Translations under genes and position numbers: made by a program | The notes under the pieces: model-generated | Database searches by the model: none | What the model saw: only the letters and a program-made list of their open reading frames with translations | What the model was told of the DNA's origin: nothing | Shown: one piece after another, positions 17,803 through 24,208 of the stretch | How positions within the stretch are numbered: the first letter of the stretch is position 1 | How the letters are laid out: each line of letters opens with the position of its first letter | Source of the DNA: Candidatus Moanabacter tarae | GTDB lineage: Bacteria > Verrucomicrobiota > Verrucomicrobiia > Opitutales > UBA2987 | NCBI GenBank assembly: GCA_003226295.1 | Contig: CP029803.1 | Coordinates: 1,048,211-1,112,210, forward strand | Length of the DNA stretch: 64,000 nucleotides | Reading direction: 5' to 3'

Positions 17803-18777
17803 ATGTCTGAAATTAGAATGGGACTAGTTGGGTCAGGTGGAATGGCCTGGCGGCGGGCACGTAATTTCCAAGAAATACCCTATTCCAAGGTAACGTCGAT
17901 CGCTGCGAGAAATCCAGAGACCGGTAGGGCACTCGCAAATGAGATGAAATGCCATCTACATTCTGATTGGCGTAGCCTAATCGACGATGAAGAGATCGAT
18001 GCAGTGGTTATATGCACGCACAACGCTCTTCATGGAGAAATCGTGATAAAAGCTCTGGAGAATAACTTACACGTGTTTACAGAGTACCCAATCGCCCGAT
18101 ATCAGAACGAAATAAAAAAAATAAGGCAACTGACGAAGAAATCATCTCCGATTCTGAGAGCAGCGCATTCGGAAACCGTTTCGCTCGAACACCAAGCCCT
18201 AAAAGATCAAATTGAAGGGATGGGAGATCTGGTTGCATCGAATTTCCTTCGGCTTACCCCAAATCGTGGAACACGACCTGAAGTGCTATTTAATCTTAAA
18301 CTTTCAGGTCCTCCTGCACTATTCTTTATCTACCACATCTATCCTATGATTGATCTTTTCGGCCCAGCCATATGGGTCGAATCTCACGCGAACTACAGGA
18401 ACCTCCGAAAAAATGGAAGTTATGACTGCTTCTTCAACACACTGACGGTGGGGTTTGCCGAGGCGGGTATCGCTCAATGGACTTGGGCTGGCGGTATCGA
18501 AATCAAATCGGCACGGCAATTTGAGCATATCGTCCTCTCCAAGGGCACATTGACTTACGAAAGGGAAAATTGGACTTTTTCAAATCGGGAAACCGTAAAA
18601 GATTTGAAAACTCCGATTATGGAAAATGAAACCCTTGAAGCCCAATTTGTAAGAGAAATTCTAGAAGAAAATGATTTATGGCGCGAGGATCTTGAAACCG
18701 CACTCCACGCCACGGAAATTGGAATCGCCGCAGAAGGATCCGCAACTAAGGGATCACGTTTAATTCTACCATTGTAG
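17803..18777 (+). CDS. Gfo/Idh/MocA family oxidoreductase with EYP motif
   Basis: 324 residues. The N-terminal Rossmann fold is clear: LVGSGGMAWRRAR (8-20), followed by the IDAVVICTHNALHGEIV strand-turn. Where most family members have the E-K-P motif with the catalytic lysine, this protein has E94-Y95-P96 in VFTEYPIA. Biliverdin reductases carry the same EYP variant. The rest of the C-terminal domain binds the substrate but carries no telling motif. It may reduce something other than a sugar or cyclitol, or bind cofactor without catalysis. A promoter-like TTGACC and TATTGA pair with 18-base spacing lies directly upstream. Monocistronic. Confidence 0.78.
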   Translation: MSEIRMGLVGSGGMAWRRARNFQEIPYSKVTSIAARNPETGRALANEMKCHLHSDWRSLIDDEEIDAVVICTHNALHGEIVIKALENNLHVFTEYPIARYQNEIKKIRQLTKKSSPILRAAHSETVSLEHQALKDQIEGMGDLVASNFLRLTPNRGTRPEVLFNLKLSGPPALFFIYHIYPMIDLFGPAIWVESHANYRNLRKNGSYDCFFNTLTVGFAEAGIAQWTWAGGIEIKSARQFEHIVLSKGTLTYERENWTFSNRETVKDLKTPIMENETLEAQFVREILEENDLWREDLETALHATEIGIAAEGSATKGSRLILPL

Positions 18778-18931: not shown

Positions 18932-19843
18932 ATGAAATACAATCAAGCTGCTACCCTCCCTGTAGAAAAATCTTTGCTAAGTAAGGCTGAGATAAACAGC
19001 TACACCGAAAATGGCTACTTGTCACTTTCTGGGGTTCTGAATGGATCAGAACTTGAAGAACTACAAAGCGTGACGGATGAGTTTATCGATAAGTCGCGGG
19101 AGATAAAAGAAAGTGACACCGTTTTTGATCTTGAACCCTCTCATAGTTTTGCCAATCCCCGTTTGCGCCGACTTAAGAGTCCGTCCAAAACGCATCCCGT
19201 TTTTAAGAAAACCCTCAGCCATACCCGAATACTCGATATCGTTTCCCAACTCATCGGACCCGATATTTATACAAATGGTGATAAAATGAACATGAAGCTG
19301 CCTCACGTAGGGAGCCCTGTCGAATGGCACCAGGATTGGGCATTCTATCCCCATACCAACGACGATCTCTTGGCAGTCGGTATCTGCCTTGATGATTCAA
19401 ACAAAAAAAACGGTTGTCTCATGGTGGTTCCAGGTTCCCACAGGGGGCCTACTCTTGATCACCATCAAGACGGACATTTCGTTGGTGCCGTAACCGACAG
19501 GAATTTTGACCCCGCAGCAGCAGTTCCTATAGAACTAAAAGCGGGCGATATTTCCATTCACCATGTACGTGCCCTACATGGCTCATTGCCTAATAAATCG
19601 GATAAAGCCCGACGCCTTTTCCTTATTCAATATGCTGCTCTCGATGCTTGGCCACTTCAACCTCCACAGTATATGGGAACAGATTTTCACGAATTTGATA
19701 ACTATATTCTTCGCGGGTCACCTAATTTTCAACCTAGAATGGCTGACGTTCCGGTTCGACTACCTCTCCCTCCTGCCAAGAGGCGGGGTTCTATTTACGA
19801 AACTCAGCTGGAATTAAAGGAATCTACCTTCCAGAAATCCTAA
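18932..19843 (+). CDS. Phytanoyl-CoA dioxygenase (PhyH) family protein
   Basis: 303 residues, Fe(II)/2-oxoglutarate-dependent oxygenase of the PhyH family. The iron facial triad is visible: H133 and D135 in VEWHQDWAF and distal H216 in ALHGSLPN; an Arg at 227/228 (ARRLFLIQY) can bind 2-oxoglutarate. GCLMVVPGSHRGP and AGDISIHH are also family-typical. Members hydroxylate or oxidatively process small substrates such as fatty acyl-CoA, ectoine, phosphonates or N-methyl compounds. It closely resembles the second PhyH at 39352 in layout. Just downstream lie two hairpins and the ANKH-like gene. Confidence 0.86.
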   Translation: MKYNQAATLPVEKSLLSKAEINSYTENGYLSLSGVLNGSELEELQSVTDEFIDKSREIKESDTVFDLEPSHSFANPRLRRLKSPSKTHPVFKKTLSHTRILDIVSQLIGPDIYTNGDKMNMKLPHVGSPVEWHQDWAFYPHTNDDLLAVGICLDDSNKKNGCLMVVPGSHRGPTLDHHQDGHFVGAVTDRNFDPAAAVPIELKAGDISIHHVRALHGSLPNKSDKARRLFLIQYAALDAWPLQPPQYMGTDFHEFDNYILRGSPNFQPRMADVPVRLPLPPAKRRGSIYETQLELKESTFQKS

Positions 19844-19846
19844 GCC

Positions 19847-19872
19847 TTTGTGTTAGATTGGCCTAACACAAA
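19847..19872 (+). terminator. Strong hairpin after the PhyH gene, candidate terminator
   Basis: TTTGTGTTAG and CTAACACAAA form a perfect ten-base-pair stem with a six-base loop, three bases after the PhyH stop codon. No T-run follows, so it may act as an mRNA stabiliser or attenuator as much as a terminator. Confidence 0.55.
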
Positions 19873-19898
19873 ACAGGGGAATCGGCTTGTCCCCCTGT
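19873..19898 (+). promoter_or_regulatory. Second hairpin in the leader of the ANKH-like gene
   Basis: ACAGGGG pairs with CCCCTGT across a 12-base loop, directly abutting the first hairpin and ending 10 bases before the GTG start at 19909. It would occupy the region where a ribosome binding site is expected; no Shine-Dalgarno sequence is visible. Confidence 0.4.
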
Positions 19899-19908
19899 AC
19901 CATCCAAT

Positions 19909-21192
19909 GTGAGGTCTTTCTGTTATCTGACTTACCTTAGGTTCCTAGTGCCTCTGGCACTGACCGTGTTTGCTTTTGATCTTCGCAGTCCGTTGGTAAA
20001 CAGCGGAATGGCTCGCCTACCCCAATCAAAGGAAACTTTAGCTGCCTTTGGATTGGCCTGGACCTTAATGATTTTTCTCTGTCTTCCCCTTCAACAGGTG
20101 AGTCATTTAGGACTGGTTCTAGCTAAGAACATCAAGGCTAAAAGAAAAATTCAGAAATTCGTCCTTTTGATATGCCTTTCCTTCTCTCTTGCTTCGGCGT
20201 TATTTGTTTTTACCCCTTTCGGGGCCTGGTATCTAGAGAATCTCCATCAAGTAAATCATGAGATCGGAGAGTCGGCCCGCTATGCGCTCATGGCTCTCAT
20301 CCCATTACCTCTAATTATCGGTATGACCAGCTACCACTCCGGTCTTCTCATGCGTGTTCACAGAACTGATTTAATCAGTTACGCCACTTTCGCCAATATT
20401 GGTTTAAGTCTTTTCTCTGTCTACCTTTTCATCCAATTAGAATCCGTAAATAGAAATCCAATTAGACTTCCCATCTATGTTATTTATGTCGGCTCAATAG
20501 TCGAATTTGCAGTTATTCTTCTCGGTTATCTAAGAACCGCCCAACCTTCTCTAAGAAAAATACCGAATTCATCTATTTCTTATTACCGCGCAGCGCGATT
20601 CTTTTTACCTCTTGCAACTGTCATGGCCCTCCAGGGGTTTAGTCGTCCAGTTATTAATCTATTCGTCTCTCGCGGACATGATAGTGTTGCTGTGCTTGCT
20701 GCTATATCCGTATCATATTCCCTTGGAGGAATTCACTATGGATGGATCAACAGTCTAAAGTCGCTTGTTCCCGCTTTTCCAAACACCAAAGATAGCCAAC
20801 ACAAAATCATGGGATTCTGTATCACCTGCGGGGTGAGCTCATTCATTCTGGCTTCAGTTCTTTTTTTTACTCCGTTAAGAAATTATATCCTACTTAAGCT
20901 CATTGCTGTTACCCCAGAAATTGCCGAGCTCTGTACCGTACCCCTGGTTTTGTCTGCATTTCTACCTCTCATTGCCCTATTTCGTACATATTACCATGGT
21001 GTTGCGATGGCCAAACAACAAACGGTTCTCCTCGCTCCCAGTGGACCAACTCGGATAGTGGGAACTATTCTGATACTGGTTGCACTTTCTCAAACGAGCC
21101 TTCATGGAGCTACGATCGGTATCGCAGCACTTGTCGGTGGCTACATTCTTGAAACCATCGTTGTTGTCTGGCTGGTATTCAGAAATACATGA
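19909..21192 (+). CDS. ANKH-like (progressive ankylosis family) membrane transporter
   Basis: 427 residues with about ten to twelve hydrophobic segments. By recollection of the vertebrate ANKH sequence, several blocks line up in order: RFLVPLAL near the N-terminus, LAAFGLAW with a following TLM, the LHQVNHEIGESAR helix region, SRPVINLFVSR, HYGWINSLKSLVPAF, IAELCTVPL and LHGATIGI. ANKH (MOP superfamily) exports pyrophosphate precursors, ATP or citrate in animals; the role in bacteria is not established. GTG start with a hairpin-rich leader and no clear ribosome site. Preceded by a PhyH gene 65 bases away. Function in this organism is unknown. Confidence 0.72.
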   Translation: MRSFCYLTYLRFLVPLALTVFAFDLRSPLVNSGMARLPQSKETLAAFGLAWTLMIFLCLPLQQVSHLGLVLAKNIKAKRKIQKFVLLICLSFSLASALFVFTPFGAWYLENLHQVNHEIGESARYALMALIPLPLIIGMTSYHSGLLMRVHRTDLISYATFANIGLSLFSVYLFIQLESVNRNPIRLPIYVIYVGSIVEFAVILLGYLRTAQPSLRKIPNSSISYYRAARFFLPLATVMALQGFSRPVINLFVSRGHDSVAVLAAISVSYSLGGIHYGWINSLKSLVPAFPNTKDSQHKIMGFCITCGVSSFILASVLFFTPLRNYILLKLIAVTPEIAELCTVPLVLSAFLPLIALFRTYYHGVAMAKQQTVLLAPSGPTRIVGTILILVALSQTSLHGATIGIAALVGGYILETIVVVWLVFRNT

Positions 21193-23821: not shown

Positions 23822-24208
23822 TCAATCGACTCGGAGCTGAACCAACCCGCGTAACATAAGCAATTTTGTATAGTGGATTACAGCCGAATCACACTCTTCT
23901 CGGTTAATATTAAATCGAGTTTGAATACTTTTAGCTATTGAGCGTAAATCTCTGATGCCATCTATCTGCTGCCAAAAGAAGGTCCCCCTCTCGTCGAGAT
24001 TAACTCTTACGGAGCGACGAAATCCGAGTTTGTCAGCCATAAATTGCATAAGTTGAGAACTAGGCTTGATTTTGTGTCTAAGCTGCAGCATCGAACGACT
24101 ATCTAACTTTGCCTCAATTCCAGGAGTGATTGAAGGGACAGCCGCGAACGGATCCTTCTCCTTCCTTCTATTTCTTTCTTTTTCCGACCTATAAGCGTCG
24201 TCAGTCAT
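23822..24208 (-). CDS. PqqD-like (RRE-fold) protein
   Basis: 128 residues. The last 75 match the PqqD fold: VNLDERGTFFWQQIDG, then DLRSIAKSIQTRFNI and a C-terminal helix LLMLRGLV. PqqD-type domains bind precursor peptides of RiPP pathways and present them to radical SAM enzymes. Here no radical SAM gene or short precursor peptide is adjacent, and the N-terminal 50 residues are a charged extension. Free-standing PqqD-like proteins of this sort are common and mostly of unknown role. Divergent from the alcohol dehydrogenase. Confidence 0.7.
   Translation of the reverse strand: MTDDAYRSEKERNRRKEKDPFAAVPSITPGIEAKLDSRSMLQLRHKIKPSSQLMQFMADKLGFRRSVRVNLDERGTFFWQQIDGIRDLRSIAKSIQTRFNINREECDSAVIHYTKLLMLRGLVQLRVD

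Follow-up and report, generated by a model that had tools for sequence, protein, structure and literature searches.

The vertebrate membrane protein ANKH (SLC62A1; Pfam family PF07260; TCDB 2.A.66.9) releases citrate and ATP, and its mutation causes disease of bone and joints. In the table of one review, W292R, C331R, S375del, F377del and G389R are listed with craniometaphyseal dysplasia, and L244S with a recessive syndrome (PMC5166521). Passages of the same review link a change of M48 to threonine with calcium pyrophosphate disease, and report that oocytes no longer take up PPi when the protein carries C331R or G389R (PMC5166521). For L244S, the loss of both citrate and PPi release has been described in human cells (PMC7371198). 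The disease roles of L244, W292, C331 and G389 are discussed in passages of PMC5166521, PMC13356900 and PMC7371198. For bacterial members of the family, an open-access search, with most subscription papers and all preprints outside its scope, found no paper on a bacterial ANKH and no use of PF07260 as a term, and a term search of a 2026 review (PMC13356900) found no mention of bacteria. Legionella AnkH is, by its name in the reference list of PMC4929541, an unrelated ankyrin effector. Because Pfam-based pipelines automatically label such proteins ANKH, bacterial matches are probably already visible in databases.

Here, we describe an ANKH gene in a 64-kb stretch of bacterial DNA, the whole of which we refer to as “the window”. 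The original prediction, made from the sequence, held that this gene encodes a bacterial homologue of animal ANKH, and that claim is borne out by a profile match, a full-length pairwise alignment, phylogenetic trees, invariant residues and the predicted fold. The gene is a genuine bacterial branch of the known ANKH family. The features discussed below are as follows.

17803..18777, plus strand: Gfo/Idh/MocA oxidoreductase gene (Pfam), second gene upstream of the ANKH gene
18932..19843, plus strand: PhyH-family dioxygenase gene (PF05721, 129.2 bits), 65 bp upstream of the ANKH gene
19909..21192, plus strand: ANKH-family (PF07260, MOP superfamily) membrane transporter gene, 427 amino acids, GTG start (open reading frame, profile match, fold model)
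20641..20673, plus strand: SRPVINLFVSR block, residues 245–255, with R246, P247 and N250 the same throughout group A (defined below) and in human ANKH
20734..20751, plus strand: HYGWIN block, residues 276–281, with conserved Y277, G278 and W279
20983..21000, plus strand: R359 and G364 (human R384 and G389)
21100..21123, plus strand: LHGATIGI block, residues 398–405, past the end of the PF07260 profile and aligned to VHGATLGV in the human protein

The open reading frame is intact, and a profile search found it to be the lone PF07260 match in the 2.63-Mb, single-contig genome. Its GC content (0.439) matches that of the window (0.446), so the gene is no obvious recent import or contaminant. There is no obvious ribosome-binding site ahead of the GTG start. 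The intergenic interval that separates ANKH from the PhyH gene (19844–19908) contains two hairpin-forming inverted repeats, the second of which is terminator-like on the minus strand. A search of the window with Rfam returned only a tRNA.

The encoded protein matches PF07260 at 140.7 bits (E 9e-41; cut-off 22), with residues 6–297 aligned to profile positions 10–310; this is the alignment that the original prediction had proposed as a check. No other Pfam family matches at E ≤ 0.001. The MatE profile (PF01554) does not match at this threshold or at E ≤ 1. The flippase (MurJ/Wzx) profiles do not match either, with Pfam returning PF07260 alone and NCBIfam models returning nothing. Membership of the MATE, Wzx or MurJ families is thus ruled out by profiles, despite a common fold (see below). 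A placement in MATE or Wzx lacking any ANKH similarity, the outcome that the original prediction named as counting against it, was looked for and not seen. None of 14 control genomes matched PF07260, so the match is not due to chance. We refer to the bacterial ANKH genes of Latescibacterota, Chloroflexota and Opitutales, which score above the PF07260 cut-off, as “group A”. All 20 bacterial group A proteins in our alignment match PF07260 (best E 1.2e-55), and only one of the 20 matches MatE (E 0.033).

The PF07260 profile stops at about residue 345 of ANKH. For comparison along the whole protein, we used a sequence of 492 residues that we take to be human ANKH; at all 11 of the mutation positions checked it has the residue expected, and it matches PF07260 at 743 bits over the whole profile (residues 1–345). 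F377, S375, W292, C331, G389, L244 and M48 are also named in published work. Residues 6–419 of the window protein align with residues 10–444 of this profile-checked human sequence (31% identity, 51% similar, E 2e-64). The likeness is collinear over the full length, as had been claimed, and includes the third of the three blocks on which the claim was based; the blocks SRPVINLFVSR, HYGWIN and LHGATIGI occur in the predicted order. Identity to human ANKH is 34% for the protein of a second Opitutales locus, L006 (against the same sequence), and 37% for that of locus L108. The window protein and the L006 protein share 40% identity, meaning that the bacterial genes are scarcely closer to one another than to human ANKH. 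Two parts of the human protein are missing from the bacterial proteins, including the window protein: the C-terminal tail containing E490, and an insert of four residues that follows SRPIVNLFVSR.

Conservation extends to residues with known consequences in humans. Human ANKH and each of the 18 group A rows, including that of the window protein, are identical in 42 alignment columns. Four disease positions, L244, W292, C331 and G389, are among these columns, and all four residues are present in the window protein. Y277, G278 and W279 (W279 being human W292) are likewise invariant in human ANKH and 18/18 group A rows. Phenylalanine occupies the position of human F377 in 17 of the 18 rows, the sole exception being the window protein, which has leucine. 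S375, P5 and E490 of the human protein are not conserved, and the position of human M48 (window residue 43) is threonine in every group A row. In ten pairs of relatives (nine from group A and one from a more divergent set, group B, described below), dN/dS ranges from 0.08 to 0.28, which indicates functional proteins under purifying selection in these relatives; the pairs comprise relatives only, since nothing close enough to the window protein was available for such a pair.

An AlphaFold2 model (m40aa9fbb130f), built on the alignment of 20 group A sequences, has a pLDDT of 88.7 and a pTM of 0.85. Comparison using Foldseek and VIA-align matched it to MATE, MurJ and WzxE structures, with Z scores of 20–32 over 360–412 residues among the 50 matches listed. 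The predicted fold is that of the MOP superfamily, as for vertebrate ANKH. This fold is superfamily-wide and does not choose among MOP families. Identity to MATE (PF01554), MurJ and WzxE proteins in the structural alignments is only 8–14%, alike as the predicted folds are. A sequence search of the PDB for a solved ANKH structure returned none, yielding only antibody noise.

The fold matches to MurJ (Foldseek TM up to 0.73) and WzxE would also be expected of a MOP flippase or polymer-export component of the Wzx/MurJ kind that resembles ANKH in sequence only. A DegT/DnrJ sugar aminotransferase gene lies within three genes of ANKH in locus L015, and its presence nearby would suit a flippase role too. 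We consider this reading very unlikely: the profile match is to ANKH alone and recurs in every one of the 20 relatives, the ANKH-type residues are conserved, and a Pfam scan of flanking proteins found no glycosyltransferase family.

ANKH-like genes are present in three bacterial phyla. In the phylum of the window genome, 5/387 sampled genomes match PF07260, only the window genome strongly; in its order, 7/132 genomes match, two of them strongly; and in its family, two of four match, both strongly (the second, G408, carries L006). The GTDB phylum that includes the Latescibacterota locus L023 has matches in 24 of 64 genomes, 23 at >100 bits. It also accounts for 14 of the 18 genomes from which our loci come, several of them labelled Gemmatimonadetes. 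For the Chloroflexota class that includes the Caldilineaceae locus L058, the figures are 48 of 396 genomes at E ≤ 0.001 and 27 at >100 bits, with a best score of 212.6. We also designed a DNA pattern around the YGW block and searched genome contigs with it. This search returned 51 stretches: 21 are group A ANKH genes (counting L047, which is the same contig as L006), and the other 30 are not. The labels of the group A loci are Latescibacterota, Gemmatimonadota/Gemmatimonadetes, Chloroflexi, Caldilineaceae, Litorilinea and Opitutales. The same pattern found four stretches in viral contigs, none related; two alignment scans of viral contigs and a single-protein scan of genome contigs found no relatives of the ANKH protein. 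In the first set of group A genes (Latescibacterota, Chloroflexota and L006 of Opitutales), identity to the window protein or to L006 is ~36–49%.

A second set of genes, “group B” (L002, L005, L007, L098, L099 and others), scores only ~20–37 bits against PF07260. Group B genes were found in the window's phylum, in Latescibacterota and in the Chloroflexota class. The proteins are similar in length to the window protein and 19–24% identical to it, with R246, R359, G364 and E415 in common with ANKH. They keep 15 of the 42 columns in 8/8 rows, including the equivalents of human R255, R384, G389 and E440; a further 15 columns are identical in 0/8 rows. R359 and G364 are invariant across 18/18 group A rows, 8/8 group B rows and human ANKH. 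By contrast, group B proteins lack C331, Q251 and N259, as well as the YGW triplet (0/8 rows), and they form a separate branch (support 99/98).

The phylogeny with metazoan ANKH that the original prediction had proposed was made with a single animal sequence, the human one, which has a long branch, and no other eukaryote. In both of our trees, human ANKH falls with group A and apart from group B, with support of 100/100 in the first (28 rows) and 99/98 in the second (47 rows; fragments, near-copies and L003 excluded). Both trees place the human sequence among, rather than beside, the bacterial ANKH genes of three phyla; AU tests did not reject a tree in which the human sequence is the sister of bacterial group A as a whole (p 0.302 and 0.196). 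It is possible, though rather doubtful, that animal ANKH descended from a bacterial gene of the group A type. According to a passage of a 2024 zebrafish study, Ankh was not identified in invertebrates on Ensembl (PMC11417794), an absence that would be consistent with late transfer of a bacterial gene into the vertebrate line. Within the bacteria, the window protein groups with three Latescibacterota proteins (97/85; branch length 1.14), and not with L006. An AU test also allows the Opitutales pair of window protein and L006 to stay together (p 0.219), and transfer of the Opitutales genes between phyla therefore does not follow.

The ANKH gene lies immediately downstream of the PhyH-family gene and may be co-transcribed with it, and possibly also with the Gfo/Idh/MocA gene. 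A xanthine-dehydrogenase-type gene begins 208 bp downstream. Other neighbors in the window include ModB- and ModC-type transport genes and genes for a phosphopantetheinyl transferase, a molybdenum hydroxylase subunit and an alcohol dehydrogenase. A small protein with a C-terminal PqqD-like domain is encoded at 23822–24208 on the minus strand. The genome has 84 PhyH and 62 Gfo/Idh/MocA matches, a large expansion of two enzyme families. The position beside a PhyH oxygenase, to which the original prediction drew attention, is real. With 84 PhyH matches among an estimated ~2,500 genes, any gene has a ~7% chance of a PhyH immediate neighbor, and in the comparison with relatives PhyH is never the immediate neighbor of ANKH in the other annotated loci. 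The adjacency is thus uninformative, and we dropped the idea of a functional link between ANKH and PhyH. Gfo/Idh genes occur near ANKH again in the L023 clade, L017 and L108, as in the window; we discounted this recurrence as evidence, since three counted genomes that show it hold 60–83 Gfo/Idh genes each.

Neighborhoods of group A genes vary by lineage, and no neighbor is conserved between lineages, the flanks of many loci covering only ~1.5 kb. In L023, ANKH lies between genes for an amidohydrolase and a ThDP enzyme, followed by Gfo/Idh; the ThDP enzymes beside ANKH in Latescibacterota are of the acetolactate-synthase type. A ThDP enzyme of this type is also encoded in the Caldilineaceae locus L100, where ANKH overlaps its stop codon. 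McrBC restriction genes are located directly upstream of this pair (7909–11360 of L100, minus strand). In L105, HpcH/HpaI-type and DHDPS-type aldolase genes are upstream of ANKH. Ten loci of the Chloroflexota class have an MR/MLE-family gene facing ANKH, identified by Pfam in one of them. ThDP, aldolase and MR/MLE enzymes frequently act on hydroxy- and oxo-acids, such that these neighbors mildly favor an organic-acid cargo; given the abundance of Gfo/Idh and PhyH genes in these genomes, adjacency proves little in this regard. Alternatively, the protein might take up sugar acids or other carboxylates for a scavenging bacterium, feeding the catabolic enzymes encoded nearby (Gfo/Idh, PhyH, MR/MLE, ThDP enzymes, aldolases and amidohydrolases). 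This seems decidedly unlikely: the same types of gene are plentiful genome-wide, and characterised members of the MOP superfamily are chiefly exporters or flippases. The wording “symmetrical transporter”, which a review applies to ANKH (PMC5166521), would be in keeping with uptake.

On balance, we lean toward a two-lobed, inner-membrane transporter of the SLC62 family with a MOP fold that works by alternating access and exports anionic metabolites, most likely di-/tricarboxylates or other organic acids. The two lobes would alternate in access as in MATE and MurJ. To judge from their conservation, the arginines R246 and R359 may hold a multivalent organic anion, with R359 a candidate anion-binding residue, and the membrane potential or an ion gradient would power outward movement. 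The role that we favor is export of citrate or similar organic anions, by analogy with human ANKH and its citrate, malate and succinate; the “phosphate/citrate exporter” label of the original prediction is likewise carried over from animals and goes further than the sequence evidence. Counting against this role are the differing neighborhoods, the DegT/DnrJ gene of L015, the window protein's departures from the bacterial consensus (such as leucine at the F377 position), its long branch and the missing E490 tail.

Nucleotides or pyrophosphate would be the next likeliest cargo, and an ANKH-family protein whose natural cargo is one of these, and not a carboxylate, is an unlikely but arguable alternative. 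Human ANKH increases ATP outside cells, and transport of PPi has been reported in passages of PMC7371198 and PMC5166521; moreover, R246 and R359, being family-wide, would suit any polyanion. Against this, citrate release from human cells is put at two or more orders of magnitude above nucleotide release (PMC7371198), and the flanking genes that we scanned include no clear nucleotide or phosphate genes. Organic-acid export remains the reading that we prefer for the bacterial protein.

The cargo of human ANKH (PPi, ATP or citrate) has itself been disputed, and bacterial relatives could serve in the study of the human transporter. As small, tail-less members of the family that keep the disease-sensitive residues, they would lend themselves to purification, to assays in liposomes and to structure determination. 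Their distribution in bacteria makes the origin of animal ANKH testable.
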